64,000 nt of DNA from Schaalia sp. 19OD2882 (GTDB lineage: Bacteria > Actinomycetota > Actinomycetes > Actinomycetales > Actinomycetaceae). Where the stretch lies: positions 1,674,001 to 1,738,000 of the forward strand of contig NZ_CP065521.1 of assembly GCF_018986735.1 (NCBI RefSeq). Direction: 5' to 3'. This document shows, piece after piece, positions 1,346-17,708 of this stretch (its first letter is position 1; each line of letters begins with the position of its first letter). The translations under genes were made by a program, and so were the position numbers. The notes beneath the pieces were generated by a model that saw only the letters and a program-made list of their open reading frames with translations, was not told the origin of the DNA and made no database searches.

Positions 1346-1642
1346 TCATCCTTCGCGGAACATGATTCCGAAGCTTCCCCGCGGATAGTGCCACTTGAGC
1401 ACTCCGTCGGGGGCCATGGCCAGGCAGGTTCCGCATTCCAGGCACGCCGCGTACTCGACGGAGACGGTCCCGTCGGCCTCGACCGTGTACACGTGGGCCG
1501 GGCAGATGCGTTCGAGCAGCTTTCCGGCGCCCGTGCGCCGGGCCAGCTCCTGGTCGACTTCGATGTGGGACTCGTCCTCGTCGAGGTTGTACGTGTTGCC
1601 GGCCAGCCTGGCCGGCACCGAGTCGATGACGAATTCAGCCAT
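1346..1642 (-). CDS. fixX: FixX-type ferredoxin-like protein
   Basis: Small iron-sulfur protein, 98 residues against 95 for E. coli FixX, that works with FixC to link the FixAB flavoprotein to quinone. Four cysteines are conserved: one in ICPAHVY and three in CLECGTC. The closing signature YPRGSFG is also present. The ATG at 1642 is preferred over the one at 1651 because the purine-rich GAGAGG sits about 10 bases before it. It is the last gene of fixABCX, 27 bases after fixC, with a strong terminator behind it. Confidence 0.93.
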   Translation of the reverse strand: MAEFVIDSVPARLAGNTYNLDEDESHIEVDQELARRTGAGKLLERICPAHVYTVEADGTVSVEYAACLECGTCLAMAPDGVLKWHYPRGSFGIMFREG

Positions 1643-1669
1643 TGTTCCCATTCCTCTCGACGATGCCGT

Positions 1670-2968
1670 TCACAGGGCCCGTACACCGGCCAGGGCGTCC
1701 CCCATGACCTCGGTGAGTTTCACCCGTGAGGCCTTCAGGGCGTCCAGTCCGACCCGAAGCATGCGACGCCTGGGGGTCAGGTCGTGGTTGAAGACCCCGT
1801 GGAACACGTCTGCGGCCAGTTGCCCGTAGTCGGTGTACATGCGCGGGCGTTCCAGGAAGGCGGGAGTCCTGGAGTAGGTCGCCATGTCCTTGCCGACGAA
1901 ACCCGCGTCGAGCTGCCTGCGGTACTCGTCCATGGCTGCCTGGGTGAAGTCACCGGCGTCAAGGGCTCGCCGGATCGCCTCGGCCGCTGCCAGCGCCGAT
2001 CCTGCCGCCAGGTCCATGCCGCGGATCGTCAGCCCCGTGTTCAGCGTGAATCCGGCAGCGTCACCGATGATGACCAGGCCCGGACGGGTCAGGTCGTGGG
2101 AGGTCATCGCCGGGCCGTCCTCGATGGTGAGGTGGCACCCGTACTCCAGCAGCGTCCCACCTTCGATGAGCGGCACGATGGCCGGGTGGGCCAGCAGGTG
2201 GTCGTGGATGTCCGAGGAGGACAGCCCCGACTTCTCCAAGTCGTCGAGTCGCATGACGACGCCGATGGAGACGGACTCGTCGTTGGTGTAGAGGAATCCG
2301 CCGCCTGCCACACCCTGCGTGCAGTCCCCGACCATCGCGTAGGCGGCGCCCTCGTTGCCGCGCACGTGGAAGCGGTCCTCCAGGACAGTGCGGTCCAAGC
2401 CGATGACGGATTTGACGCCCAGGGCCAGGTGCTTCATGGGCTCCTTGGTGCGGATCCCCGCCTGCCTGGCGATGAAGGAGTTCACCCCGTCGGCGGCCAC
2501 CACCACGTGGCAGCGCAACTCGTCCTCGTGGGCGCGCACGCCGACGACCCGCCCGCCGTCGACGATGAGGCTGTCGACCCGCACGCCGGGCATGACGGTG
2601 ACCCCGGCCTCTTCGCACTGCTCCAGCAGCCACGCGTCGAGTTTGGCGCGCAGGACCGACACCGCATTGACGGGTTCGGCCAGACGCTTGTCCCAGTAGT
2701 CGATGGTGACGTGGGATCCGGGATTGACCAAGCTCACGCAGTTCCGGGTGATCCTGCGCTCGACGGGCGCGACGTCGACGAATCCGGGGAAGACCTGTTC
2801 CATGACTCGGCAGTAGAAGACGCCGCCGGACAGGTTCTTCGATCCCGGCTCCGCGCCGCGTTCGATGAGGAGGACTTCTCGTCCGTGTTGGGCAAGGGTG
2901 TGGGCGCAGACCGCGCCCGCCACCCCTCCCCCGATGACGATGACCTCGAAGTCGACTTCTTGGGACAT
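1670..2968 (-). CDS. fixC: FixC: ETF-quinone oxidoreductase-like flavoprotein
   Basis: FAD-dependent oxidoreductase of 432 residues that exchanges electrons between the FixAB electron-transfer flavoprotein and membrane quinone, together with FixX. The N-terminus (residues 6-37) carries the dinucleotide-binding motif VIVIGGGVAGAV followed by LLIERG. A second FAD signature, PGLVIIGDAAGF, lies near residue 285. The iron-sulfur domain of longer ETF-QO proteins is absent here and is supplied by FixX, the normal FixC/FixX split. It starts 12 bases after fixB. In E. coli these proteins feed electrons to CaiA, which is encoded nearby here too. Confidence 0.93.
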   Translation of the reverse strand: MSQEVDFEVIVIGGGVAGAVCAHTLAQHGREVLLIERGAEPGSKNLSGGVFYCRVMEQVFPGFVDVAPVERRITRNCVSLVNPGSHVTIDYWDKRLAEPVNAVSVLRAKLDAWLLEQCEEAGVTVMPGVRVDSLIVDGGRVVGVRAHEDELRCHVVVAADGVNSFIARQAGIRTKEPMKHLALGVKSVIGLDRTVLEDRFHVRGNEGAAYAMVGDCTQGVAGGGFLYTNDESVSIGVVMRLDDLEKSGLSSSDIHDHLLAHPAIVPLIEGGTLLEYGCHLTIEDGPAMTSHDLTRPGLVIIGDAAGFTLNTGLTIRGMDLAAGSALAAAEAIRRALDAGDFTQAAMDEYRRQLDAGFVGKDMATYSRTPAFLERPRMYTDYGQLAADVFHGVFNHDLTPRRRMLRVGLDALKASRVKLTEVMGDALAGVRAL

Positions 2969-2980
2969 GTCGGGCTCGTT

Positions 2981-3853
2981 TCAGGAAAGGGCCGCCGTGA
3001 TCGCGGGCACGACCTCGTACAGGTCGCCGACGATGCCGTAGTCGGCCATTTGGAAAATCGGGGCGTTCGCGTCCGTGTTGACGGCCACGACCACCTTGGA
3101 GCCGCTCATGCCGGAGGTGTGCTGCACCTGGCCGGAGATGCCCAAGGCGAAGTAGACCTCCGGGGAGACGTGGATGCCGGAGACACCGATGTAGCGGTCC
3201 TTGCTCAGCCACGCGGTGCCCTCGGCCAGCGGACGCGAGCAGGCGATCTCGCCGGAGACCGCGTCAGCGAGGGCGCGGGCAAGTGCCAGGTCCTCCTCGG
3301 CCTTGAATCCACGGCCGCAGGCCACGATGCGGCGCGCGGCGGCCAGGTTTGCGGGGCCGGAGGTTGCCGGCTGGACGCTGGTGATGCGGGCGGCGGCGGG
3401 AGTGGCCTCGTGGGTGTCCACGGGTGCGTCGCCGGAACCAGCGGCTGCGCCTCCTTCGAGGACGAGGACGGCGCGGGGGTAGGAGACCGACTCGATGCTC
3501 AGTCCGCCGTAGCGGGCGACCTGGGCCGAGCCGGCCGCCACCGTGGTGGCGCCGACGAGGACGGGCAGGGCCAGGCGCGCGGCAACCGCGCCGGCGAAGG
3601 AGCGTTCGGCGGGCCTGTTGGGCACGAGGACCAGGTCGACCTCGGCGCCCGCCACCAGGTCGGCGACGGCGACGGCGAGGGCCTCGGCGGGGACGTCCTC
3701 GGCCACGGGCAGGTGGACGACGCGGTCCACGCCGCCCATTGCCGGCGCGGAGGGGGCCACGACGAGGACGGTGGTGGTCCCCTCGATCGCCGCAGCGGTG
3801 TCGACGAGGTGGGCGATGCGCTCGTCAGTGGTGAGGATCCATGTGTTCGTCAT
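2981..3853 (-). CDS. fixB: FixB: electron transfer flavoprotein alpha subunit
   Basis: Large subunit of the Fix electron-transfer flavoprotein, 290 residues. The C-terminal FAD domain is recognisable from the run VACGRGFKAEEDL, the segment YIGVSGIHVSPEVYFALGIS and the FAD-contact stretch VVAVNTDANAPIFQ. It forms a heterodimer with FixA. A purine-rich ribosome site (AGGAAAAAGGAAC) precedes the ATG. The gene follows fixA after 17 bases, so the two subunits are made from one message. Confidence 0.93.
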   Translation of the reverse strand: MTNTWILTTDERIAHLVDTAAAIEGTTTVLVVAPSAPAMGGVDRVVHLPVAEDVPAEALAVAVADLVAGAEVDLVLVPNRPAERSFAGAVAARLALPVLVGATTVAAGSAQVARYGGLSIESVSYPRAVLVLEGGAAAGSGDAPVDTHEATPAAARITSVQPATSGPANLAAARRIVACGRGFKAEEDLALARALADAVSGEIACSRPLAEGTAWLSKDRYIGVSGIHVSPEVYFALGISGQVQHTSGMSGSKVVVAVNTDANAPIFQMADYGIVGDLYEVVPAITAALS

Positions 3854-3870
3854 TGTTCCTTTTTCCTTCC

Positions 3871-4632
3871 TCAGAGCGCGCCGGCGTTGCGCAGGGCTTG
3901 GACGAGCTGGGCGGGAGCGTCGTCCCCGCTGAAGACCTCGTTGCGGCGGGTCTCGGCCACGGGCTTGGCCCGCCCGGTGGTCTCCAGGGTGACCTCTGCC
4001 AGGTCGAGGTCGGCGGCCGGTACCACCTCAAGGGGTTTCTTGCCGGCGGCAAGGATGTCCTTCATGCCGGGGACCTTGACGGGTGCGGCGTCGGTGGCCA
4101 CGGCCACGACGACGGGCCCGGTGATGCTCACGGTGCGGGTGCCGCCGGCGACGCTCTGCGTGATGGACCACTGCCCGTCACCTCCCGTGACTGCGGTGAC
4201 CTCCTGGAAGCAGGGCCATCCGAGGAAACCTGCAAGCAGCGTGGGAACGATCTTCGCGGACTCGTCCACGGAGGAGTCCCCTGCCAGGACCAGGCTGACA
4301 TCTCCTGCCTTGGCCACCAGGCCCGCCAGGGCGCTGGCCACCCGGGTGGCGTTCCACGTGGCGGTCTCGTCCTCGGCGACGACCAGGGCCCGGTCCATGC
4401 CGCGCGAGAGGGCGCCCTTCTTCGCCATGGAGGAGGACACGGCGCAGGAGCCGACCGAGATGCCGACGAGCTCGGTGCCGAGGGAGTCGGCCAGGTCACG
4501 CCCGACCTGGACGGCAACCGGGTCGTACTCGGAGATTGCCGCCTTGGCGCGGGACCAGTCGACGACGCCGGAGGCGTCGACCGAGGCATCCTGCGGATTC
4601 GCGGCGTACTTGTAGGCGACGAGAATACTCAT
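3871..4632 (-). CDS. fixA: FixA: electron transfer flavoprotein beta subunit
   Basis: Small subunit of the Fix electron-transfer flavoprotein, 253 residues (E. coli FixA: 256). The N-terminus MSILVAYKYAANPQD and the segment SEYDPVAVQ match the FixA pattern. The ETF-beta signature region includes VVVAVATDAAPVKVPGMKDI. The ATG at 4632 is chosen over a start 18 bases upstream because AAAGGAAAAA lies directly before it. It is first in fixABCX and is divergent from the TetR gene. The 118-base gap between them holds two palindromes that are likely to control both. Confidence 0.93.
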   Translation of the reverse strand: MSILVAYKYAANPQDASVDASGVVDWSRAKAAISEYDPVAVQVGRDLADSLGTELVGISVGSCAVSSSMAKKGALSRGMDRALVVAEDETATWNATRVASALAGLVAKAGDVSLVLAGDSSVDESAKIVPTLLAGFLGWPCFQEVTAVTGGDGQWSITQSVAGGTRTVSITGPVVVAVATDAAPVKVPGMKDILAAGKKPLEVVPAADLDLAEVTLETTGRAKPVAETRRNEVFSGDDAPAQLVQALRNAGAL

Positions 4633-4671
4633 CGTTTTTCCTTTCTTCACGAGGTGTACTCGGTGGTGTGT

Positions 4672-4701
4672 GGATCGTCGATCCCGTGAGGAGGGTCACG
4701 G
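4672..4701. promoter_or_regulatory. Two adjacent palindromes between fixA and tetR
   Basis: GGATCG-T-CGATCC at 4672-4684 is a perfect 13-base palindrome. It abuts CCGTGA-N6-TCACGG at 4684-4701, also perfect. Both lie in the 118-base divergent gap between fixA and the TetR regulator. A TAGAAT hexamer at 4709-4714 could be the -10 element of tetR. Operator function is inferred from position and symmetry. Confidence 0.55.
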
Positions 4702-4750
4702 CAGTCGTTAGAATCGTCCGAGAGCAGCCCCCGAGGAAGGAGTGCACGCA

Positions 4751-5458
4751 GTGATCCCTTATGTGCTCGTCGGGTCCTCCAGGCCCGGTCGCCCTCGTGA
4801 CCCCCAGTTGGAGGAACGGATCCACCGCACGGCCCTGGACCTGTACGGCGAAGTCGGATGGACCGGTTTCAACCTGACGAAGATCGCGGCAGCCGCAGGG
4901 GTCGGCAAGTCCAGCCTGTACTCGCGCTGGAGTGACCGTGACGAGTTGCTTCGCCAGTCCTTCGCTACTTTGGTCGTGTGTCCCGGACCCGTGGGCGAGT
5001 CCCCCGAGGAGATCCTCGTCAACGAGGCCGAGTTCCGTCTGCGCGAGTACCTGGGACCGAACCGTTCGGCCATGCGCCGCCTCTTCGTCGAGGCCGGCAA
5101 CGCCGAGGACCCGGTGATCTGCCGCATCTACGAGGACGTGTTCGTCAAACCCCTGTCGGCAATCCGCGAGCGCCTGTGGGACTTCAAGGTCAATGGGGAG
5201 TTGCCGCGCAACACGTCGCTGGTGCGTCTGCTGGACGCCATCGAAGGCAGCGTCCTCATGCGCACCTTCTGCCTGCGCGACGACTTCATCGAGTGTTTCC
5301 TGGAGAAGGTCCCCGCCTATGTCGCGGACCTGGTCTCCGACCAGCTTCACCACCATGAGCCCTCCCGGCAGTTGGACTGGTCGGACTCGCCGAAGGACAC
5401 CGCCGAGACCATCCTCAGCATGGCGGCCTCCGCACCCAGTGTCGTCTCCCGCCCGTGA
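4751..5458 (+). CDS. TetR-family transcriptional regulator
   Basis: DNA-binding regulator of 235 residues. The N-terminal helix-turn-helix spans roughly residues 25-70 and reads IHRTALDLYGEVGWTGFN, then KIAAAAGVGKSSLYSRWSDR. The C-terminal ligand-binding region is not recognisable by eye. The GTG at 4751 is preferred over 4742 because AAGGAG at 4737-4742 is then 8 bases upstream. The gene points away from fixA and its last 112 bases run into the 3' end of the convergent hydrolase gene. It is the only regulator in the cai/fix cluster and the obvious candidate to sense its substrate or CoA ester; E. coli uses the unrelated CaiF. Confidence 0.88.
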   Translation: MIPYVLVGSSRPGRPRDPQLEERIHRTALDLYGEVGWTGFNLTKIAAAAGVGKSSLYSRWSDRDELLRQSFATLVVCPGPVGESPEEILVNEAEFRLREYLGPNRSAMRRLFVEAGNAEDPVICRIYEDVFVKPLSAIRERLWDFKVNGELPRNTSLVRLLDAIEGSVLMRTFCLRDDFIECFLEKVPAYVADLVSDQLHHHEPSRQLDWSDSPKDTAETILSMAASAPSVVSRP

Positions 5459-6015
5459 CCGGGAAGGACGACCAGCGCCGGGTCCATCTGGGCAAGACGG
5501 GCACATGAGCACCTCATGTCCCGGTCGTTGCCCAGCACGTACTGGGTGGAGCCGATGGCACCGGCGAAGAGCATGTCGCCGGTGAAGAGGATCCCGCGGG
5601 CCTCGTCGAGCAGGCAGATGCTGCCCGGCGTGTGACCGGGGGTGTGCAGGACCTTGAGGGCGTCTGCGCCCCATCGGATCTCGTCCCCCTCGGCAAGGGG
5701 GCGATCGATGTGGTCGACGGTGTAGTCGATGCCTTCGTCGTCGAAGCCCGAGCGGTGCAGGTCCGCCACCCCGTCGACGTCGTCGACACCGCAGGCCACC
5801 CAGCAGCCGTGGGCCTCGACGACTTCGTTGACGGCGCCGATGTGGTCGCAGTGACAGTGGGTGATGACCACGCCGACGACGTTCTTGCCCTCCAGCCATT
5901 CGAGGACCTCCTCGGCCTGCGCCCCGGGGTCGATGACCAGGGTGCCTTCGTCATTCGTGATCGCGTAGCAGACGGCTTTCCACGAGCCGAGGACTCGACG
6001 TTCGATGGTGTACAT
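5347..6015 (-). CDS. Metallo-beta-lactamase-fold hydrolase
   Basis: Zinc hydrolase of 222 residues in the glyoxalase II-like branch. It has the metal motif THCHCDHIGA near residue 58, then HTPGHTPGS, FTGDMLF and LPGHGRET, so all metal ligands are present. Substrates in this branch are often thioesters, so a CoA-thioesterase or glutathione-thioester role in the carnitine pathway is possible but not shown. ATG 6015 comes 2 bases after the MFS stop codon, implying translational coupling. The 3' end overlaps the convergent tetR gene by 112 bases. Confidence 0.85.
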   Translation of the reverse strand: MYTIERRVLGSWKAVCYAITNDEGTLVIDPGAQAEEVLEWLEGKNVVGVVITHCHCDHIGAVNEVVEAHGCWVACGVDDVDGVADLHRSGFDDEGIDYTVDHIDRPLAEGDEIRWGADALKVLHTPGHTPGSICLLDEARGILFTGDMLFAGAIGSTQYVLGNDRDMRCSCARLAQMDPALVVLPGHGRETTLGAEAAMLRMVSAVSFGESDQSNCREGSWW

Positions 6016-6017
6016 GG

Positions 6018-7358
6018 TCAACGCCCCCTGAAATCTGGAGATCCGGTTTGCGCGAGAGTGTATCCGCGCGTCTCGGGCGCCCAGATGAGTGAGGTGACCA
6101 GGCCCAGGGCGGAGATCCCCGCACCGGCCAGCAGTGTGGTGGAGATTCCGTGTTCGTCGATGAAGCCCGGCAGCACGTAGATGGAGATGACGGTGCCGAT
6201 TCGGCTGAGGGACATGGCAAAGCCCATGGCGGTGGCGCGGATCTCCGTGGGGAAGAGTTCATTGGGGTAGAGCCATTCGAGGTTGCCGGGCCCGCCGGAG
6301 AGGATGGCGTAGGAGATGAAGCAGCCCATGACCAGGCCGATTCCTGCACCCGGCCAGAATCCGATGACTGCCAGTGCCACAGTCATGCCGGCGAAGCACC
6401 AGATGATGAGGGGGCGGCGGCCGATCCTCTCGCACAGGTACATGGCGGGGAAGGTGCCGAGCATGAAGAAGGTGCCGATGACCAGTTCCCCGAGCAGGAC
6501 GTAGCGTCCCTCGCCCAACCCGACGGCGCTGATGATCTGAGGGCCGTAGGTGTACAGGGCGAACATGGGGATGACCTGGCACAGCCAGATGACACCGATG
6601 AAGATGACGCGTTTGAGGTAGACGCCGTGGAGGACCTTCATCACGGAGGTGGTCTGGGCGTCCTCGTCCTGGGGAAGACGGACGTTGGCGCCCAAGGTCT
6701 CACGCACGATCGCCTTGGCCTCCTCGATGCGTCCCTTGGACACCAGCCACCTGGGGGATTCGGGGATGTTCCACCTACCGACCAGGATGAGGATGCACGG
6801 GATGGCCGACGAGGCCAGCATGTAGCGCCACCCGTGGGACACCTCGACCAGGGCGAAGCCGACCAGGGCCGCCACATTGGCGCCCAGGTACCACGCGGCG
6901 GCGATGACACCCATGGCGGCCGCCCTGTGCTTGCGGGGCGAGAATTCGACGATCATCGAGGTGGCGATCGGGTAGTCGGCTCCGACTGCCACTCCGATGA
7001 GGAAGCGCAGGACCACCAGGGGGACGGGGCTGGACACGAGGGCGCACAGGATCGACAGGACGGCAATGACGATGAGGTCGATGACGAACATCTTGCGTCG
7101 CCCGATGAGGTCGGTGACCCAGCCCCCCACGGAGGCGCCGAGGAAGAGCCCGGCCAGGGCCGCCACCCCGAGCAGGCCGCTCCAGTGGGCGTCCAGGACC
7201 AGGTCGGTGCCCACGGCTCCCAGGGCGACGCCGATGATGGACAGGACGTAGCCCTCCAGGAAGGGGCCGCCTGAGGAGAAGACGATGACGCGCCGCAGCA
7301 GCGGCGTCATCTCGAGGTCCTCGAGGTCGATGACGGGCTCGTCGTCCTTCGCGGTCAT
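6018..7358 (-). CDS. MFS transporter, sugar-porter-like
   Basis: Twelve-helix major facilitator carrier of 446 residues in the cytoplasmic membrane. Family signatures are DLIGRRKM after helix 2, PESPRWLVSKGR at the end of the first half and ERIGRRPL in the second half. The start is the ATG at 7358, with CGGAGG immediately upstream. It follows the hydratase gene but is separated from it by two strong hairpins. It may carry carnitine or a related betaine in place of the CaiT antiporter, which is not found here; the substrate cannot be read from the sequence. Confidence 0.88.
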   Translation of the reverse strand: MTAKDDEPVIDLEDLEMTPLLRRVIVFSSGGPFLEGYVLSIIGVALGAVGTDLVLDAHWSGLLGVAALAGLFLGASVGGWVTDLIGRRKMFVIDLIVIAVLSILCALVSSPVPLVVLRFLIGVAVGADYPIATSMIVEFSPRKHRAAAMGVIAAAWYLGANVAALVGFALVEVSHGWRYMLASSAIPCILILVGRWNIPESPRWLVSKGRIEEAKAIVRETLGANVRLPQDEDAQTTSVMKVLHGVYLKRVIFIGVIWLCQVIPMFALYTYGPQIISAVGLGEGRYVLLGELVIGTFFMLGTFPAMYLCERIGRRPLIIWCFAGMTVALAVIGFWPGAGIGLVMGCFISYAILSGGPGNLEWLYPNELFPTEIRATAMGFAMSLSRIGTVISIYVLPGFIDEHGISTTLLAGAGISALGLVTSLIWAPETRGYTLAQTGSPDFRGR

Positions 7359-7399
7359 GTCCCTCCGTTCATGGTGCGTGTCGTGCGGTGGCCAGGGGT

Positions 7400-7466
7400 G
7401 TGGCGCGGGAGAGTGCGAGGAGAGAAGACTCTCCCGCGCCACTGCAGGGCGGGTGTGCTGCCCTGC
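7400..7466 (-). terminator. Two tandem hairpins between hydratase and MFS genes
   Basis: GTGGCGCGGGAGAGT at 7400-7414 pairs perfectly over 15 bp with 7428-7442. A second stem, GCAGGGC at 7444-7450, pairs with 7460-7466. Both lie just past the hydratase stop at 7474 and before the MFS start at 7358. They should terminate or reduce transcription between the catabolic genes and the downstream carrier and hydrolase. Confidence 0.75.
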
Positions 7467-7473
7467 CCGCCGG

Positions 7474-8349
7474 TCAGCGGAACTCGATGATTCCCCAGTT
7501 CAGGTGGGGCTTGGCGCCGGTCTCTTCGGCGTCGACGTCGACGAGGGCGAAGCGCAGTTCGCCTTCACCGACCTTCCACAGCCGGGTCTTCAGGGTCGAG
7601 CCCGGGTGGACGGGTGAGGTGATGCGGGTCTTGAAGCGCAAGATCCGCTCGGGCTCGCCGGGGACGAAGGCGTTGATCGCGTGGCGCATGACGACGCCTG
7701 CGTAGGAGATTGCGTGGAGGATCGGGCGGGGCTCGCCGTTCTCGGCGGCGTAGTCCCAGTCGATGTGCTGGGGGTGGTAGTCGCCGGAAAGGCGGTAGAT
7801 GAGGGCCTGGTTCTCCGGGATGGTCTCCACCACCTCTACGTCGGCAGGGCGCTCGGGCATGTCGACGATGTCCTTGGGGGGCTTGGGGCCTCCCCAGCCG
7901 CCGTCGTAGATGAGGCAGTCCCAGGACTCGTTGGTGAAGAGCAGATTCCCGTCGGAGTCGTAGGTGTCGCCGATGTGCTGGGCCAGCAGGCCACGGCCCT
8001 CTCCGCGGTCGTAGAGGCCTTCGAGACGCACTTTGGTCTCCAGGTGGTCGCTCATCTTGGTGATGGGACGGTGGAAGGTGATGTCGAATCCCCAGTGCAG
8101 GGAACCGGCGTAGTTGTAGCCGTAGTCGATGGTGCGGGTCACCTCGGAGTCGACGATGAGCATGGCTCCGAACATGGGAAGGACCTTGAGCTTGGGGTCC
8201 CTCTCGTCGTGCTCGTTGAGGTATTCGAGGCCGTCCTTGCCGTCGATTCCGGCGCCGCAGCCCAGGGCGAAGAGCTCCAGGTCGCGGAAGGTGTAGTCGC
8301 GGACGAAGGGGCCGAAGGTCTGGCCGACCATCTCGGTGTTGATCGCCAT
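7474..8349 (-). CDS. MaoC-type double hot-dog hydratase/dehydratase
   Basis: Predicted enoyl-CoA hydratase (3-hydroxyacyl-CoA dehydratase) of 291 residues with two hot-dog halves. The N-terminal half (about 1-150) is the FAS1/MaoC_2-like partner. The C-terminal half carries the R-hydratase motif as YRLSGDYHPQH, with Asp190 and His195 in the catalytic positions; the usual Asn of GDxNPxH is His192. It lies directly after caiC. In E. coli the carnitinyl-CoA dehydration step is done by CaiD, a crotonase. No crotonase is present here, so this unrelated fold probably replaces CaiD; that substitution is inferred from context. Confidence 0.87.
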   Translation of the reverse strand: MAINTEMVGQTFGPFVRDYTFRDLELFALGCGAGIDGKDGLEYLNEHDERDPKLKVLPMFGAMLIVDSEVTRTIDYGYNYAGSLHWGFDITFHRPITKMSDHLETKVRLEGLYDRGEGRGLLAQHIGDTYDSDGNLLFTNESWDCLIYDGGWGGPKPPKDIVDMPERPADVEVVETIPENQALIYRLSGDYHPQHIDWDYAAENGEPRPILHAISYAGVVMRHAINAFVPGEPERILRFKTRITSPVHPGSTLKTRLWKVGEGELRFALVDVDAEETGAKPHLNWGIIEFR

Positions 8350-8377
8350 CGTTCACTGTCCTTTCATGGGGTCGGTG

Positions 8378-9973
8378 TCATTGGGGTGTCAGCAGGTTCT
8401 TCTGGACTTTGCCGTAGGCGCCTCGCGGCAGGTCGTCGACGAATTCGACGATGCTCGGCACCTTGAAAGCGGCAAGGTGGTGTGCACAGTGGTCGATGAC
8501 CGCCACGGCGTCGAGGCCGGCGTCGGGGACGGCGACGACGAAGGCCTTGACGGCCTGGCCGCGCACGTCGTCCGGGATGCCGATGACGGCGGTTTCGCAC
8601 ACTCCGGGGATCTCGGCGATCACGCTCTCGACCTCTGCCGACGAAACCGATTCCCCGGAGCGTTTGATGAGGTCGACCCGCCGGTCGACGAAGTGGACCC
8701 AGCCGTCCTCCACGTAGGCGTAGTCGTGGGTCCTGTACCAGCCGTCGGCGTCGAGCACCTCGGCGGTGGCCTCGGGGTCGTCCCAGTAGCCCGCCATGAG
8801 ACTGACTCCGGGGACCCCGTGCAGGAGAAGCTCCCCCACCTCTCCGTCGGGAAGGTCATGCCCGGCCTCGTCGACGACCCGGATCCGGTACCCGGGGGCG
8901 GCCTTGCCCACTGCGGGCCAGCGGCGCGGCCCGTGGGGAGGATCGGTGACGGCGCCGATGAGGCATTCGGTGGACCCGTAGTTGTTGAGCAGGGTGACAC
9001 CGAAGCGTTCTTCGAAGGCTTCCTTGTCCCGGGTGCACAGGGGCAGGAAGTAGTGCATCTCGCGCACGCTGTGGTCGCGCTCCATCGGGTCGACCTCTTG
9101 GCGCAACATGGTCGACACGATCATCGCCATCCCCTGGACCAGGGTCGCCCGGTGTGCGCGCGCCTGCTTCCAGAAGCAGCTCGCCCGGTAGTGCGAGAGC
9201 ATGATGATGGTTGCGCCGATGGTCAGCACCGGGGCCAGGGCAGAAAGCTGGAAGTTCACCCGGGCCGCCACCATGGAGGTCATGTAACGGTCCTCGGGGT
9301 TCATGTCCAGTTCCCAGTTGACGAAGTTGCCGGAGAAGACGACGTTCGCGTGGGTGATCATCACGCCCTTGGGCGCCGAGGTCGTGCCCGAGGTGAAGAG
9401 GATTGCGCACAGGTCCTGCGGGTCCAGGGGGGCCGGGTCGTCGAAGACCTCGCTCTGACGTGCGGCGATCTCCCACAGGGGTAGCACGGGTGTGGTCCCG
9501 CCCTCGTCCCCGAGGCCTGGGACACCCTGGCCCGACCGCCTCCGCCCGGTCACGAGGACCCGGCGGAGGTCGGGCGGCAGACAGGCACGCACCCTCTCGA
9601 AAGTGTCCTGGCACGTGATGAGCGTGTCCGAAGCACTCAGGTCAAGGATGCGGGCCAACTCGACCGGCACGGAGGTGGCGTCGACGGGCACGGCCACAGC
9701 ACCCATCTTCGCCAGGGCAAGGAGGCACTCGACGAACTCGACACGGTTGTCGAGGTGGAGCGCCACCCGGGTGCCCTCGACGACTCCGCAGGCTGCGAGC
9801 GCATTCGCGCACTGGTTGACCAGCACGTCGAACTGGCGGTAGGTGAAGCGGCTGACCTCGTGCGAGTACGCGTCCTCGAAGACGAGGAACTCGTGGTCAC
9901 CCCTGGCCTCCACCTGCCGTGCCCACAGCTGCGGCACCGTCGTGTTCTCCGGCACGAATGTCGAGTCGGACAC
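8378..9973 (-). CDS. caiC: CaiC-like betaine/carnitine-CoA ligase
   Basis: ATP-dependent acyl-CoA synthetase (ANL superfamily), 531 residues against 517 for E. coli CaiC. It is predicted to activate carnitine, crotonobetaine or gamma-butyrobetaine. The phosphate loop is at 193-202 (FTSGTTSAPK) and YGSTE at 332-336. The hinge aspartate is Asp417 in YRTHDYAY, where most relatives have TGD. The adenylation lysine is Lys522 in YGKVQKNLL. Resemblance to CaiC runs through the whole protein, for example VALHLDN and KAFVV. It uses a GTG start and lies 6 bases after caiB. Confidence 0.9.
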   Translation of the reverse strand: MSDSTFVPENTTVPQLWARQVEARGDHEFLVFEDAYSHEVSRFTYRQFDVLVNQCANALAACGVVEGTRVALHLDNRVEFVECLLALAKMGAVAVPVDATSVPVELARILDLSASDTLITCQDTFERVRACLPPDLRRVLVTGRRRSGQGVPGLGDEGGTTPVLPLWEIAARQSEVFDDPAPLDPQDLCAILFTSGTTSAPKGVMITHANVVFSGNFVNWELDMNPEDRYMTSMVAARVNFQLSALAPVLTIGATIIMLSHYRASCFWKQARAHRATLVQGMAMIVSTMLRQEVDPMERDHSVREMHYFLPLCTRDKEAFEERFGVTLLNNYGSTECLIGAVTDPPHGPRRWPAVGKAAPGYRIRVVDEAGHDLPDGEVGELLLHGVPGVSLMAGYWDDPEATAEVLDADGWYRTHDYAYVEDGWVHFVDRRVDLIKRSGESVSSAEVESVIAEIPGVCETAVIGIPDDVRGQAVKAFVVAVPDAGLDAVAVIDHCAHHLAAFKVPSIVEFVDDLPRGAYGKVQKNLLTPQ

Positions 9974-9979
9974 GGCAGG

Positions 9980-11200
9980 TCAGTCCCCGTCGTCCGTCTT
10001 GACGGTGCCCGACGCGATGAGTGCGTCGATCTCCTCGGGCGCATAGCCCGCGCGCGTCAGCACGTCGCGGGTGTCCGCACCCAGTGCCGGCATCGGCCGC
10101 CAGAAGGCTCCCGGGTTGCGGGCGAACTTCGGGAAGGTGTTCAGCCCCATGACGCGGCCGCCGTCGGCCTTTTCCCACTCGATGAAGCACTCGCGGGCCT
10201 TGACGTGGTCGGCGGCAAGGATGTCCGGGAACTCGTTGACCACCTGGGCGGCGATCCGGTGCGCCACGAAGTCCGCCTGGACCTCGTGCTTGGACTGGGT
10301 CTTGAGCCAGGCTTCCAGCGTGTCCTGGATGAGGTCCGCCTTGGGGCTGGACAGCCACAGGGCGGAGGTGCCCTCCGGGTAGTCCTCGGTGCCCCACAGT
10401 TCGCCCAGGCCGATCGTCTCCAGCAGGTACTTGTTCTGCGAGACGCCGTACAGGCACAGGCCGATGTACCCGTCCTTGCATTCGTAGATGCCGATTCCGC
10501 ACAGGTTCTGGTGGCGGGCTCCCGGACGCGGGTAGGTGATCCCCGCGTTCATGAAGTCCATCATGTAGTAGGTGCCGACCCGCAGCAAGGTCTCGTACAT
10601 CGCCATGTCGATGCTCTCACCCCGGCCGGTCACGCCCACGCGGTGCAGCGCGGCCAGCGACGAGGAGATGATCATCAGCGAGTTGATGTAGTCACCCAGG
10701 TACGGGGAGATGTTCATCGGCTGGTCGGCGGACCCGTTCTGGGCGACGATGCCCGCGTAGGCCGCCACCGTGAGGTCGTAGGCCGCCGAGTTCACCTGGG
10801 AGTCGTCACCCCACTGGCCGAATCCCGACACGTGGACGATGACGAGCTTCGGGTTGACCTCCCAGAGGAACTCGTCGGTGATGCCCTTGCGTGCGTACAT
10901 GGGGCCCTTGGAGGACTCGATGAAGATGTCCGCGTCCTTGATGATGGCGCGCAGGGCTTCCTTGCCTTCGTCGGTGAAGGGGTTCATGGAGATGGAGCGC
11001 ATGTTGCGCCGTTCCATTTCCTTGACCCACGTCGTGTCGCGCATCGAGTCGCCGCTCCACACGTTCTCGATCCACGTGACGTCGGCGCCCCATTCGCCCA
11101 TGATGGCCGCGGCTGTGGGGGCCGCGATCTCGACGGCGGAGTAGACGACCTTCACGCCGTCCAGGACGCCGAATGAGGGCTTCTCGGTGGGAAGTGCCAT
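9980..11200 (-). CDS. caiB: CaiB: betaine/carnitine CoA-transferase (class III)
   Basis: Transfers CoA between gamma-butyrobetainyl-CoA or crotonobetainyl-CoA and carnitine. It has 406 residues against 405 in E. coli and is recognisably collinear with it: WIENV, IFIESSKGP, GITDE, PKLVIVHVSGFGQ, GESIDMAMYE and MPKF-like blocks are all present. The catalytic aspartate of class III transferases is Asp170 in PYLGDY. The ATG at 11200 gives the family N-terminus. It sits between caiA and caiC, as in enteric bacteria. Confidence 0.95.
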   Translation of the reverse strand: MALPTEKPSFGVLDGVKVVYSAVEIAAPTAAAIMGEWGADVTWIENVWSGDSMRDTTWVKEMERRNMRSISMNPFTDEGKEALRAIIKDADIFIESSKGPMYARKGITDEFLWEVNPKLVIVHVSGFGQWGDDSQVNSAAYDLTVAAYAGIVAQNGSADQPMNISPYLGDYINSLMIISSSLAALHRVGVTGRGESIDMAMYETLLRVGTYYMMDFMNAGITYPRPGARHQNLCGIGIYECKDGYIGLCLYGVSQNKYLLETIGLGELWGTEDYPEGTSALWLSSPKADLIQDTLEAWLKTQSKHEVQADFVAHRIAAQVVNEFPDILAADHVKARECFIEWEKADGGRVMGLNTFPKFARNPGAFWRPMPALGADTRDVLTRAGYAPEEIDALIASGTVKTDDGD

Positions 11201-11229
11201 GGTGCAGTCCTTTCCTGGGTCGAATCGGC

Positions 11230-12363
11230 TCAGCGGTACGGGTACAGGGCGGAGCGGCCTGCGGTGAGGATCATCATTTCGTCGGTGCCACCTGAGATGC
11301 GGTCGACGCGAAGGTCCCTGTAGAAGCGCTGGACGCGGTGGTCCCCGGTGATGCCCACGCCCGCCAGGACCTGAAGGGCCCGGTCGACTACCTCGAAGGA
11401 GGCCTGCGAGCAGTGGAACTTGGCCATCGAGCAGTCGCCGCGCGAGAGCAGCCCGTGGTCGTGCTTCCACGCGATCTCGTAGAGCATGTTGCGCATGTTC
11501 GTCAGGTGGATCTTCATCTCGGCGAACTTCAGTTGGATCAGCTGGTGGCGGGCGATGGCCTGGCCGCCCTGCATGCGCTGGTTCGCGTACTTGGCGGCGT
11601 CCTCGAAGGCGCAATAGGCCTGCCCGTAGTTGGTCAGGGCCACGAGGAAACGCTCCAGGTCGAAGTCGGCGACCCCACGGCGGAAGCCGTTTCCTTCGGT
11701 GCCGAAGAGGTCCTTCTCCTCCAGGACGACGTCGTCGAAGTAGACGTCGCAGCACGAGTCCATGCGCAGGCCCAGCTTGTGCAGGGGTTCCTTGGTGATG
11801 CCCGGCAGGCTCATGTCGACGAACCACTCGGTGTAGGTGTCCATGTTCTCCGAGTCTCGCGCCATGACCACCAGGTAGGGCACGTGCAGGGAGGAGGTGA
11901 TGAAGGTCTTGTGGCCGTTGAGGTGGACCTTGCCGTCCTTGCGCGTGTATGTGGTGCGCATGTCGTCCCACGAGGATCCCGCCGAGGGCTCCGTCATGGC
12001 GTAGTTGAGCATCTGCTTGCCGGAGCCGACGAAGGAGAGGATCTTCTCCTTCTGCTCCTCGGTGCCCTCACGCAGCACCGTGTCCCAACACGGCAGCTGG
12101 TAGAGCACGTACGTGGGGCCGCCCTCGCGGCCGAGGGCCTCGTAGGCGGCGGTCAGCGTCACCCAGTCGGCGCCCAGGCCGTCGTGCTCCTCGGGCAGGA
12201 GGATCCGGTCGAAGCCGAGTTCACAGATGGCCTGGGTCCATTCGATGGGGTACTCGTGCTTCTCGTCGCACTCGTGGAAGTAGGAGTCCCACGCGCGTGA
12301 ACGCATGAGTTCGGTGAAGGCGTCCACCATGAGTTGCTGGTCTTCGGACAGTGAGAAATCCAT
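11230..12363 (-). CDS. caiA: CaiA: crotonobetainyl-CoA reductase
   Basis: Acyl-CoA dehydrogenase-family flavoprotein that reduces crotonobetainyl-CoA to gamma-butyrobetainyl-CoA with electrons from the Fix flavoprotein. It has 377 residues against 380 in E. coli. Highly characteristic blocks are shared: [19 protein letters not shown] [49 protein letters not shown] and [11 protein letters not shown]. This strength of match points to a betaine substrate rather than a generic fatty acyl-CoA. It follows the esterase gene after 30 bases. Confidence 0.95.
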
Positions 12364-12393
12364 GTCATGTCTCCTTCGGGCGTGTGGGCCGGT

Positions 12394-13362
12394 TCAGCGG
12401 TCGAGAGGGTGTTCGAGGTGGAAGTGCGCGGCCTGGGCGAGGACCTCCATGGTCTGGTCGAGCATCTTCGAGTGGTGGAGGAATCCGTGGATGACGCCCT
12501 CGACCTCGGTCAAGAGGTGGGGGACGCCTGCCAGGGTGAGCATTTCGGCCAGGGTGCGCGAGTCGTCCCGCAGGGGGTCGAGTCCCGCCGCGACCACGTG
12601 GCAGGGCGGCACACCGCAGCTGAGATCGTTGGCGAGGATGTTGAACAGCGGGTGGTCGGCGTCGGCCGGGGAGGCGAAGTACTGGTCGAGGTAGTAGCGG
12701 TAGTCGTCCTCGGTCAGGCCGTCCCAGGGTCCGCCCAACAGGCGCATGGACATGGAGTCCTTGAGCCCGTAGGCGCCGTAGAACAGGAGCATGCTGCGGG
12801 CGCTGGGAAGGGAGCCTTCGTCGCGCATCATGAGCATGGTCGCCGCTGCCATGTTGGCCCCGGCGGAGTCGCCCGCGAAGGAGACGTCCGCCGGGTCGAT
12901 GCCCCATTCGTCGGCGTGCCGGCGGATGTGTGCGACCACGTCGCGGCATTCCTCGATCTGGTGGGGAAAGCGCGCCTCGGGTGCCAAGGTGTAGTCGATG
13001 CTGGCGACCACCGCCCCTGTCAGGTGGCACAGGGTGCGAGTGATGCGGTCGTGGGTGTCCACGTCACCGATGACCCACCCTCCTCCGTGCACGTACACGA
13101 TGAGGGCGAGGGAGCCCTGGTCGCCGGGTCGGTACGAACGCACCCGCACGTGGCCGTGGCGCGTGGGAACCTTGCGGTCCACCGTCAGGGGGACCTCGGG
13201 GCCGCCCTCGTTCCAGAAGGCGCGTTCGGTGCGGTAGGCCTGACGCATCTCCTGCAGGCTCTGCCCGGTGACGTAGGCGCCTTCGGCGAGTTCGTTCTGG
13301 GTGTCGACCACCCGTCCCATCTGCTCGCACCACAGTGCGGGCACGTCGTACTTGTGTCCCAC
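12394..13362 (-). CDS. Alpha/beta hydrolase, HSL-family esterase
   Basis: Carboxylesterase of 322 residues in the hormone-sensitive-lipase family. The oxyanion motif HGGGW is at 92-96, the nucleophile Ser166 in GDSAG, with Asp262 (LDPLRDD) and His292 (VIHGF) completing the triad. No signal peptide is seen, so it should be cytoplasmic. It uses a GTG start and ends 30 bases before caiA. The E. coli cai operon has no esterase. Its place here suggests release of carnitine or a related betaine from an ester such as an acylcarnitine before CoA activation; this is inference. Confidence 0.87.
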   Translation of the reverse strand: MGHKYDVPALWCEQMGRVVDTQNELAEGAYVTGQSLQEMRQAYRTERAFWNEGGPEVPLTVDRKVPTRHGHVRVRSYRPGDQGSLALIVYVHGGGWVIGDVDTHDRITRTLCHLTGAVVASIDYTLAPEARFPHQIEECRDVVAHIRRHADEWGIDPADVSFAGDSAGANMAAATMLMMRDEGSLPSARSMLLFYGAYGLKDSMSMRLLGGPWDGLTEDDYRYYLDQYFASPADADHPLFNILANDLSCGVPPCHVVAAGLDPLRDDSRTLAEMLTLAGVPHLLTEVEGVIHGFLHHSKMLDQTMEVLAQAAHFHLEHPLDR

Positions 13363-13371
13363 GGTGACGCC

Positions 13372-14709
13372 TCAGGCTTCCTCGGCGGTGGCGTCCGCTT
13401 CGACGGTGGCGCCGCGCTTGCGTGCCACGAAGGCGAGGGCGAATGCGCAGATCGCGGCGATGACTGCGGCTCCGGCCAGGATGAGGAAGATCTGGTTGAA
13501 GGCCACCGCCGGATTGTCCTGGTTCGCGTCGCGGATGGAGCCGAACCAGATGTAGGAGAAGGTGTCGGGCAGGAAGCCGATGACGGAGAGCAGGCCCGTG
13601 GCCGTGCCGAAGACTCCGACCGGGACCTTGCCTTCTGTGAGCTGGCTGGAGCAGATGCCGAAGACACCGTTGGCGACGAAGGCCAGGACGATGGCCATGA
13701 TCACTGCCACGTAGGCCAGGCCGGCGCTCGCAGGGAGGTAGGCGAAGACGGCCAAGCCGATCGCGGCGACCACTGATCCGATGCCGATGACCCGTGAGGG
13801 GGAACGCAGCCACTCGGCGATTGCGCCGAAGGCCGGGGCCGACACCAGGGAGACACCGTAGGTGCGCACGGATCCCACGATGAGGACGATTCCTGGAGCG
13901 ATCTTCATGACGTCATTCATGTAGCCGGTGGTCTGGTTGACGCCCGTGTAGAAGAAGTACACGAAGAACAGGGTCAGCGCGGCCAGCCACACGACGGGGT
14001 TGGACAGGACCTGCCCCAGTTGGCCGACGCTGAAGCGGCCTCCCTCCGAAGCGAATTCGCCCTTGAACTTGGGGATGAAGAAGAAGGACAGGACTGCCAG
14101 CGTCATGATGATGCCGCCGAGGACCAACAGCAGGGTGCGCATGGGGACGATGCCGCCCTGGTCGGCCAGCAGCGAGACGATCCACGCATTGAAGAAGCCC
14201 AGGAGCAGGCCGGCCAGTCCGTAGAAGCCGTAGGAGATGCCGATGTTGCGTGAGTAGGCGTCCTCTTCGGAGACGAGGCGCACGAGCTTGAAGCGGATGC
14301 CCCACCAGATGAGGATCGTCGTGATGCCCATGCCGACGAAGAGGCCGATGAGGACCCAGAAGGAGGGGAAGAAGGCGTACCACCACGTGAGCAGAGCGGT
14401 CGATCCGAATCCCACCCAGGCCAGTGTGCGCACGCGCACGTGGTCGGCGACGATGCCGGAGGGCAGGTAGCAGATCAGGGCGGTCCACGAGTAGGCGCCC
14501 AGCAGGGTGCCCATGGTGGTGGCGACGTTCTCCTGGCTCGCGGCGCCGGAGGCGATCAGTGCGTTCTGGAGGGGTTGGTCGAACACGTATTGCAGGTATG
14601 CGGGCGTGTAGACGATGGAGCTGCCGATGGAGACCAGAATGAGCAGGAAGGCGCGATGGGCGAAGGTGAGTTCGCGCGCGGGTCGCTCACCAGAAAGAAT
14701 GCTCAGCAC
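13372..14709 (-). CDS. MFS transporter, first gene of the cai operon
   Basis: Major facilitator carrier of 445 residues with about twelve hydrophobic helices. Recognisable parts are the helix 1 region AFLLILVSIGSSIVYTPAYL, the loop LPSGIVADHVRVRTLAWVG after helix 2 and a basic C-terminal tail ending after ALAFVARKRG. It is the promoter-proximal gene, 9 bases before the esterase, and so the best candidate for substrate uptake or carnitine/butyrobetaine exchange in place of the BCCT carrier CaiT. It is not closely related to the second MFS gene of the cluster. Confidence 0.87.
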   Translation of the reverse strand: MLSILSGERPARELTFAHRAFLLILVSIGSSIVYTPAYLQYVFDQPLQNALIASGAASQENVATTMGTLLGAYSWTALICYLPSGIVADHVRVRTLAWVGFGSTALLTWWYAFFPSFWVLIGLFVGMGITTILIWWGIRFKLVRLVSEEDAYSRNIGISYGFYGLAGLLLGFFNAWIVSLLADQGGIVPMRTLLLVLGGIIMTLAVLSFFFIPKFKGEFASEGGRFSVGQLGQVLSNPVVWLAALTLFFVYFFYTGVNQTTGYMNDVMKIAPGIVLIVGSVRTYGVSLVSAPAFGAIAEWLRSPSRVIGIGSVVAAIGLAVFAYLPASAGLAYVAVIMAIVLAFVANGVFGICSSQLTEGKVPVGVFGTATGLLSVIGFLPDTFSYIWFGSIRDANQDNPAVAFNQIFLILAGAAVIAAICAFALAFVARKRGATVEADATAEEA

Positions 14710-15232: not shown

Positions 15233-16129
15233 TCAGAGCAGGCCCGCATCCTCCATCGCGCGGCAAAGGCGCGCGACATCGCCCTCGTCTGCGGTGACCA
15301 GAGGCAAGCGGAGCGTCGGCGTGGCGATGACACCCTGCAGGTGCAGCGCATGCTTGACCATGACAGCCCCCTGACCGCCGCCCATGATCGCTTGGACCAG
15401 GGGCCGCAGGCCGTAGGACAATTCGCGCGCCTCCCACACCTTGTCGGCGTCCAGCAGGTCGATCATCTGCCGATACTGCCGCGCGGCCACATGTGCCACC
15501 ACCGAGACGAAGCCGGAGGCCCCGCCTGTCATCCACGCGAAATTCAGGCCGTCGTCGCCCGAATAGTACTCCAGACCAGTGCGGTGCATCCTGCCCACAC
15601 CCTGTTCCACATTCCCGGTCGCGTCCTTGACCCCCTTTATGCGCGGGTGCGCGGCCAGGCGGTCCAAGGTCTCGTCGGAGAAGGCCAGGCCCGTTCGTCC
15701 GGGGATGTCGTAGAGCATGATCGGCAGGTCGGTGGCTTCGGCAATGGCCTGCACGTGGGCGACCAGGCCCTTTTGGGAGGGCCTGTTGTAGTAGGGGGAG
15801 ACGACCAGCAGGGCGTCGGCGCCGCGGGCTTGGGCTGCCACGGCGATCCTCACGGCATGGGCGGTGTCGTTGGAGCCGGCACCGCACATGATGAGTGCAC
15901 GCTGGCCCACGGCTTCTTTGACGGCTGTGGTGAGCTCGTCCTTTTCCGGCTGGTGGGTGGTCGGGGACTCCCCCGTGGTGCCCGACAGGAGGATCGTGTC
16001 ACAGCCGTCGTCGACGAGCTTCGTGGCGACCTTGGCCGCGGAGTCCAGGTCGATGCTCCCGTCCGGGTGGAAGGGGGTGACCATCGCAGTGCAGAGGGAA
16101 CCGAAGGCGCGGGCAGGAAGGTGGCTCAT
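15233..16129 (-). CDS. dapA: 4-hydroxy-tetrahydrodipicolinate synthase
   Basis: Condenses pyruvate with aspartate semialdehyde, the first committed step to lysine and diaminopimelate for the cell wall. It has 298 residues, normal for the family. Signatures are SGTTGESPT at 49-57, the catalytic tyrosine region YDIPGRTG (Tyr140) and the Schiff-base Lys168 in IKGVKDATG. A terminator hairpin follows. Two direct copies of CGTGAGATTCGTCCG lie just upstream, and the word returns near dapB. Confidence 0.95.
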   Translation of the reverse strand: MSHLPARAFGSLCTAMVTPFHPDGSIDLDSAAKVATKLVDDGCDTILLSGTTGESPTTHQPEKDELTTAVKEAVGQRALIMCGAGSNDTAHAVRIAVAAQARGADALLVVSPYYNRPSQKGLVAHVQAIAEATDLPIMLYDIPGRTGLAFSDETLDRLAAHPRIKGVKDATGNVEQGVGRMHRTGLEYYSGDDGLNFAWMTGGASGFVSVVAHVAARQYRQMIDLLDADKVWEARELSYGLRPLVQAIMGGGQGAVMVKHALHLQGVIATPTLRLPLVTADEGDVARLCRAMEDAGLL

Positions 16130-16159
16130 GCCCAGAGCCTAGGCCTTCCCACCCTTCCC

Positions 16160-16198
16160 CGTGAGATTCGTCCGCCACGGCGTGAGATTCGTCCGTCA
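16160..16198 (+). repeat. Direct repeat CGTGAGATTCGTCCG upstream of dapA
   Basis: Two copies 21 bases apart, at 16160-16174 and 16181-16195. The second copy extends to an 18-base word ending at 16198. The same 18-base word occurs inverted at 17765-17782 next to dapB. The repeats begin 30 bases before the dapA start codon, in its leader or promoter. Confidence 0.6.
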
Positions 16199-16292
16199 TC
16201 CGATTTGGTCACCCACGTCGGCCACAACTGCGACCGAGACCGTGAGTGTGACCGAAGAGCGTCCCGCGTCAACAGATTCTCAATGCCCGCCC

Positions 16293-16883
16293 TCACTGAC
16301 CTTCGCGAATCGACCACCACAGGTGTTCGACGAGCACGTCGCCCTCGCCCTCGCCCACCCTGTGCGCACGTCGCAGGCCGGCCGGGCCGAACCCGGCCCC
16401 CTGGAAGAAACGGATCCGCTCCTGGTCGCCCGCCGCGATCCACACGCGCAGGCACTGCGCACCCGAGACCTCCGCCACCGCCGCCAGCAGGCGCGACCCG
16501 TGTCCGCTGCGTCCAAATGCGGCATCCACCCACAGGTTGAGGATCTCGGTTCCGCCAGGCACAGGCTCTCCCCGACCGGGCGGCGGCTCACTGGCGCCCA
16601 CCGGCGCGCATGAGGCGAATCCGGCCACACCGTGCCCATGGACGGCGACCAGAGTGTGGCATCCTTCCGGCCGAGGTCCGCCCAGCGTGTGCCGCCACGC
16701 CCTGACCACCTCTTCAGTGGAAGGAAGGTTGGAGTCCGGAACCCCCACCCCGCGTATCAGCCCAGCCAGCGCCGCCCGGTGCACCCGCGCAACGTCCTGC
16801 GCATCGGTGGGCAGTGCCGCACGCACGGAACGATCCGGCGAAGCCCCAACCCGTGGCCACCTGTGCCCGGTCTCGATGGTCAT
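16293..16883 (-). CDS. GNAT-family N-acetyltransferase
   Basis: Predicted acetyl-CoA-dependent acetyltransferase of 196 residues. The GNAT fold is indicated by the N-terminal strand VRAALPTDAQDVARVHRAA, the central strand EILNLWVDAAFGRSGHGSRL containing the acetyl-CoA loop and the C-terminal pattern LRVWIAAGDQERIRFFQGAGF. The substrate is unknown. It follows dapB on the minus strand and is separated from dapA by about 160 bases that hold the direct repeats. Nothing in the sequence ties it to lysine synthesis apart from position. Confidence 0.85.
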   Translation of the reverse strand: MTIETGHRWPRVGASPDRSVRAALPTDAQDVARVHRAALAGLIRGVGVPDSNLPSTEEVVRAWRHTLGGPRPEGCHTLVAVHGHGVAGFASCAPVGASEPPPGRGEPVPGGTEILNLWVDAAFGRSGHGSRLLAAVAEVSGAQCLRVWIAAGDQERIRFFQGAGFGPAGLRRAHRVGEGEGDVLVEHLWWSIREGQ

Positions 16884-16901
16884 GGCGCCGTCACACCCTC
16901 C

Positions 16902-17642: not shown

Positions 17643-17708
17643 GTGGGTTCCTCGTTCCTTCCGGCGCGGCGGGGGCAGGTGCTCAGGGTGCCCATTGTCG
17701 CCCATGGG

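Follow-up and report, generated by a model that had tools for sequence, protein, structure and literature searches.

The window analysed here is a stretch of 64,000 nucleotides from Schaalia sp. 19OD2882 (assembly GCF_018986735.1, contig NZ_CP065521.1, positions 1,674,001 to 1,738,000), whose genome is one contig of 2,563,835 bases and 99.94% complete. Between positions 1346 and 14709 it carries 13 genes in the order MFS2, esterase, CaiA, CaiB, CaiC, MaoC, MFS1, MBL, TetR, FixA, FixB, FixC and FixX. All are on the minus strand except the TetR gene, which is on the plus strand, in agreement with the original prediction, which had described a co-oriented cluster interrupted by TetR and taken it for a rewired carnitine reduction operon. 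Spacing within each co-oriented run is −4 to 31 bases, with a gap of 29 between CaiB and CaiA. The cluster shares CaiA, CaiB, CaiC and FixABCX with the caiTABCDE-fixABCX genes of Escherichia coli. It differs in that CaiT, CaiD, CaiE and CaiF were not found beside it and in that an esterase, a further MFS carrier (MFS2), MaoC, an MBL-fold hydrolase and TetR are added.

The reading of the cluster as a carnitine pathway is supported by CaiA and CaiB: both exceed the NCBIfam cut-offs for the carnitine equivalogs, and CaiA groups with its E. coli counterpart. CaiA, the crotonobetainyl-CoA reductase (11230..12363, minus), scored 702 bits against NF002885 (cut-off 540) and is 61% identical by BLAST to CaiA of E. 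coli K-12. In a tree of 82 sequences (a single FastTree run giving one topology, with support of 0.78 at the node joining all CaiA) the window and E. coli proteins fell in one clade, YdiO was next outside and ten further paralogues lay beyond. A YdiO-type paralogue was therefore ruled out, and the placement outside the carnitine clade that would have counted against the prediction was not observed in this tree, which covers CaiA. The E. coli YdiO-YdiQRST system likewise pairs an acyl-CoA dehydrogenase with electron transfer flavoprotein and Fix-like partners. CaiB, the betainyl-CoA:carnitine CoA-transferase (9980..11200, minus, with the ATG at 11200 as its start; searches were run with 9980-11197), scored 665 bits against NF002914 (cut-off 413) and is 44% identical to E. 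coli K-12 CaiB. Its top matches in the PDB are the CaiB entries 1xa3 and 1xk6, and it retains the GESID stretch, whose Asp we take to be the catalytic residue. The third enzyme is a CaiC-like betaine:CoA ligase (8378..9973, minus, GTG start).

A complete FixABCX set of four co-oriented genes, as predicted, accompanies these enzymes, with identities of 35-42% to the E. coli proteins. FixA (3871..4650, minus; 35%) and FixB (2981..3853, minus; 38%) are the beta-type and alpha-type subunits of an electron transfer flavoprotein and scored 124 bits against PRK03359 (cut-off 219) and 169 bits against PRK03363 (cut-off 549), respectively. FixC (1670..2968, minus; 41%), a flavoprotein resembling electron transfer flavoprotein-quinone oxidoreductase, scored 399 bits against PRK10015 (cut-off 466). 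The ferredoxin-like FixX (1346..1651, minus; 42%) scored 75 bits against PRK15449 (cut-off 166) and exceeded the cut-off of PF05187.

The original prediction had noted that CaiT, CaiD, CaiE and CaiF are not visible, and indeed none of them matched any of the 13 proteins of the window. CaiE and CaiF gave no BLAST match among these proteins or in 71 fetched loci (a genome-wide search was not made), and CaiT had no match in the same 71 loci. A caiD-type crotonase and a BCCT carrier elsewhere in the genome, used with this operon, would have undermined the idea of a replaced pathway. PF00378 matched a single crotonase of the genome, MenB (529 bits against a cut-off of 378), which rules out a hidden second crotonase, and the CaiD model NF002936 had no match at E<=1e-45 in the source genome. 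This model exceeded its cut-off in none of 213 genomes of the family, one of which (G103) has a 177-bit match, while the E. coli control genome was detected. Two BCCT carriers are present elsewhere; at 28-30% identity to CaiT they were judged too distant to be CaiT, though they may serve this operon.

The protein that we propose as carnitinyl-CoA dehydratase in place of CaiD is a MaoC/hydratase-2-like protein (7474..8349, minus). It has the tandem hot-dog fold, with a match over 270 residues of 1s9c. Like the hydratases 2 of known structure (human MFE-2 domain, 1s9c; C. tropicalis, 1pn4) it keeps the Asp and His of the hydratase-2 motif, but the Asn is replaced by His. This substitution was found in all 58 distinct MaoC relatives. 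The Asn was read from two aligned solved relatives, and we take it to belong to the defining motif.

The distribution of MaoC follows that of CaiA closely. A search for related loci returned 38 (21 from Actinomycetia and 17 from Eggerthellaceae genera), and CaiA, CaiB, CaiC and MaoC were present in 38/38. After one locus (L015) was moved to the count for Propionibacteriaceae, each of the four was found in 20/20 Actinomycetia loci and a nearby crotonase in 0/20. The original prediction had asked for a comparison of neighbourhoods across the family. Of the 213 family genomes, with thresholds of at least 587 bits for CaiA and E<=1e-40 for MaoC, 39 had CaiA and precisely these also had MaoC (Fisher p 1.3e-43, uncorrected for relatedness), and MaoC had no match at that threshold in the 174 genomes without CaiA. 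The coordinates place the two genes 3.6-4.5 kb apart on the same strand in 39/39. Two matches to CaiA at 44% identity, one in G094 and an additional one in G168, met the E-value threshold but were treated as paralogues and left out of the count.

Beyond the family, a draw of 396 genomes from the phylum included 8 with CaiA, all but one of which (G408) also had MaoC. In Propionibacteriaceae, the family of L015, CaiA was found in 14/197 genomes, 9 of which have a full MaoC and 1 a cut copy; the latter (L103) ends with its contig and was not counted as full, and the contigs of L101, L102, L104 and L107 end before the place of MaoC. Loci L101-L112 represent a second Propionibacteriaceae type, with fixA and fixB between caiB and caiC where the loci reach that far. 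Another locus of this family (L100, G801:C1:263000-282900) has the esterase, CaiB and MFS1 each in two open reading frame pieces, as if decaying. In Actinomyces marseillensis (L008) MFS2-esterase-CaiA is repeated in a partial tandem duplication, in which CaiA of the first copy and MFS2 of the second are shortened.

The family of G408 (f27), which is Eggerthellaceae by its named members, has CaiA in 37/138 genomes and MaoC in 32 of the 37. The other five, from three genera, lack MaoC at E<=1e-10 while retaining MFS2, esterase, CaiA, CaiB, CaiC and MFS1, and all five have a crotonase beside the cluster that is 38-43% identical to CaiD. An alignment of 22 distinct crotonases showed that they retain two glutamates of CaiD, presumably the catalytic ones. 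When three Eggerthellaceae crotonases were scanned, a general enoyl-CoA hydratase model was the best, and they scored 172-179 bits against the CaiD cut-off of 500. Among the 37 loci of this family, 18 have both MaoC and a crotonase, 12 MaoC only, 7 a crotonase only and 0 neither. The 12 include loci cut by contig ends, among them L068, L072 and L075, and L093 shows no crotonase, although one is present in L034, which covers the same place and extends further into the flanks. Loss of MaoC was ruled out for two of the seven MaoC-less loci, whose genomes (G697 and G693) have MaoC elsewhere, so that 5 losses were counted. In these two genomes the MaoC gene is solitary and lies apart from the cai cluster (L113 and L114).

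MaoC is thus the candidate for the step of CaiD because MenB is the only crotonase of the source genome, because MaoC and CaiA co-occur in 39 genomes, and because the protein has the hydratase-2 fold with Asp and His; that MaoC-less Eggerthellaceae carry a crotonase, and that 0/37 loci lack both, argues in the same direction. The original prediction had the unmatched genes standing in the places of the missing ones, and this description fits MaoC best. It fits less well for the esterase, which would add the hydrolysis of acylcarnitine, a step absent from the E. coli operon, and for MFS1 as a stand-in for CaiT, since E. coli has YaaU by fixABCX together with CaiT.

MFS1 (6018..7442, minus) is a YaaU-like carrier of 474 residues with an uncertain start (GTG). 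Its identity to E. coli YaaU is 54% over 440 residues, higher than that of CaiB or CaiC to their E. coli counterparts; the likeness is seen at 6018-7442 of the window and at 12808-14139 of L045. In E. coli K-12 yaaU comes after fixX and is annotated as a putative transporter. MFS1 is probably a betaine carrier, and the linkage of yaaU and MFS1 in E. coli and actinobacteria suggests the same for YaaU, giving this protein a testable role. MFS1 resembles YaaU, with orthology unproven. It was found in 19/20 Actinomycetia loci and 35/37 Eggerthellaceae loci. The other carrier, MFS2 (13372..14709, minus; Pfam MFS_1, 60 bits), is the first gene of the run, had no relative in a PDB sequence search, and was found in 20/20 and 36/37 of these loci, respectively; it probably imports acylcarnitine or carnitine. 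Next to it lies the esterase, of alpha/beta-hydrolase fold 3 (12394..13362, minus), which scored 369 bits against the acetyl esterase model PRK10162 (cut-off 389). Its best-scoring solved structures are the acetyl esterases 4krx and 3ga7, and it was present in 20/20 Actinomycetia and 32/37 Eggerthellaceae loci. It is probably an acylcarnitine hydrolase.

From gene identity, conservation, co-occurrence and fold, all of which were observed here, we infer the reaction of each protein, the substrate of MaoC, the directions of transport and the source of electrons. MFS2 would take up acylcarnitines and carnitine, and the esterase would hydrolyse acylcarnitine to carnitine. CaiC would start the formation of the CoA thioester, with CaiB recycling CoA from gamma-butyrobetainyl-CoA. 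MaoC, in CaiD's place, would dehydrate L-carnitinyl-CoA to crotonobetainyl-CoA, which CaiA would reduce, fed by FixAB. FixCX may draw the electrons from the menaquinone pool or a different donor, and the YaaU-like MFS1 may export gamma-butyrobetaine, perhaps by exchange. We give a probability of about 0.68 to this reading, in which the cluster serves uptake and deacylation of acylcarnitine and carnitine and reduction to gamma-butyrobetaine with MaoC acting for CaiD. The carnitine reduction operon of the original prediction is the best reading and probably right.

The layout itself is neither new nor specific to this strain, as it has been published for a relative. Homologues of fixABCX and caiABC in P. 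freudenreichii and P. acnes were described in PMC7650540 (2020), where carnitine was suggested as an electron acceptor. The parts of PMC11007987 (2024) covered here describe a carnitine cluster of P. freudenreichii, a dairy bacterium, without caiD and caiT, and suggest that the missing functions might be taken over by an enoyl-CoA hydratase and an MFS carrier. As in the window, an MFS gene and an alpha/beta hydrolase gene adjoin caiABC, and between caiABC and fixABCX there is an enoyl-CoA hydratase gene as well as one for an MFS carrier; the genes are likened by described layout and not by sequence comparison, and it is from gene order that we infer that MFS2 matches the MFS gene beside the hydrolase. 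Strains with these MFS and hydrolase genes deplete octanoylcarnitine and decanoylcarnitine and have more carnitine and putative gamma-butyrobetaine (PMC11007987). These metabolomics results support the proposed pathway. The term MaoC does not occur in that paper, the covered parts of which also do not discuss fold, stereochemistry, YaaU or spread to other species. Our additions are the breadth of the distribution, the linkage of MaoC and CaiA, the resemblance to YaaU, the invariant His and the Eggerthellaceae variants, for which an earlier report in Eggerthella lenta is possible.

Several observations weigh against the proposed pathway. The gamma-butyrobetaine of P. freudenreichii was identified only putatively, and what PMC11007987 shows, in the parts covered, is an association. 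All four Fix proteins are under their NCBIfam cut-offs. CaiC is also under the cut-off of its best model, that of the carnitine-CoA ligase (NF005947, 519 bits against 651), and is 36% identical to E. coli K-12 CaiC. The exchange of MaoC and crotonase in Eggerthellaceae is a suggestive trend and not significant (Fisher p 0.07 in-locus and 0.15 genome-wide, relatedness ignored), and 18/37 loci have both enzymes. Finally, normal hydratase-2 geometry gives a (3R)-hydroxyacyl-CoA, and a Cahn-Ingold-Prelog check showed that this arrangement is (S) in carnitine and corresponds to D-carnitine, and hence to D-carnitinyl-CoA. The caution in the original prediction that the stereochemistry may differ was a good point, and it can be made more sharply than it was there.

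We propose, tentatively and at somewhat less than even odds, that the MaoC protein has replaced CaiD and hydrates the face opposite to that used by an ordinary hydratase 2, giving L-carnitinyl-CoA, and that the invariant change of Asn to His is part of the cause. No report on MaoC stereochemistry with carnitine or crotonobetaine was found in the open-licence literature. If the proposal is true, a stereospecific step has undergone non-orthologous replacement across two actinobacterial classes, and genomes with crotonase only, MaoC only or both are natural variants. Whether the facial selectivity of a hot-dog hydratase can be reversed is a question for which the MaoC step offers a clean test.

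The same geometry, together with the loci that hold both enzymes, favours an alternative in which MaoC has ordinary facial selectivity and acts on D-carnitinyl-CoA, L-carnitine being handled by another enzyme, by the crotonase where present, or not at all. Where a crotonase is present the pair would interconvert both enantiomers, and E. coli was reported to convert D- to L-carnitine through a 'carnitine racemase' (PMC2131755, in the part covered). We consider this unlikely. The source genome, which does have MaoC, contains MenB as its only PF00378 crotonase, a nearby crotonase is absent from the 20 Actinomycetia loci, D-carnitine is said in the same part of PMC2131755 not to exist in nature, and P. 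freudenreichii, which has no caiD, apparently processes the carnitine of milk (PMC11007987, parts covered). Slightly less probable still is a role in which the substrate is a compound akin to carnitine, for example a short enoyl acid or a different beta-hydroxy betaine, and carnitine itself is handled only incidentally. The low score and identity of CaiC and the lack of CaiT, CaiE and CaiF matches in the fetched loci would fit such a role, whereas the equivalog scores of CaiA and CaiB, the 61% identity of CaiA and the association with acylcarnitine and carnitine reported for P. freudenreichii (PMC11007987, parts covered) argue for carnitine itself. That MaoC, which is nearest to the enoyl-CoA hydratases 2 of fatty-acid oxidation, serves the acyl chain freed from acylcarnitines, with L-carnitine only salvaged and crotonobetaine reduced when supplied, is very improbable, given that the 13 genes include no thiolase or 3-hydroxyacyl-CoA dehydrogenase, that the five MaoC-less Eggerthellaceae keep the transport, esterase and Cai genes and carry a crotonase, and that MaoC was unmatched in family genomes without CaiA.

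Eggerthella, Gordonibacter, Slackia and Adlercreutzia, which are gut genera, are among those in which loci were found. Gamma-butyrobetaine is a precursor for gut bacterial trimethylamine (PMC8364193, part covered). Databases seeded with caiTABCDE clusters may miss carriers that lack CaiD or CaiT, because the main text of PMC11857547, which describes such a database, contains no mention of Eggerthella, Slackia, Schaalia or the string 'Actinobact'.

The MBL-fold hydrolase (5347..6021, minus, TTG start; PF00753, 104 bits) is glyoxalase II-like, scored 81 bits against GSH_gloB (cut-off 200.8) and is perhaps a thioesterase. It was found in 17/20 Actinomycetia loci and, at 40% identity or more, in 0/37 Eggerthellaceae loci, where L077 and L080 have matches of 29-33%. 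The TetR regulator (4742..5458, plus; PF00440, 34 bits) is divergent from fixABCX, shares the 112 bases at its 3' end with the MBL gene and was present in 18/20 Actinomycetia loci. No convincing TetR operator shared by the upstream regions of fixA and MFS2 was found, the search giving a single common 9-mer and a single weak palindrome. A promoter scan gave 0 sites (mean of 1.1 after shuffling) and a terminator scan 2 (mean of 5.2 after shuffling).

The left flank of the cluster appears to encode RNase J (1-1206) and the right flank dapA (at 15233) and dapB (at 16902), within 15233-17705. The cluster may be an insertion at this place, because we take dapA and rnj to be adjacent in other actinobacteria. 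A DapA relative also lies near the cluster in L002, L004, L005, L006 and L016, and other loci may end too soon. The nearest named relatives of the window CaiA, at 93-94% identity, are from Schaalia species, Actinomyces sp. B33 and Pauljensenia hongkongensis.

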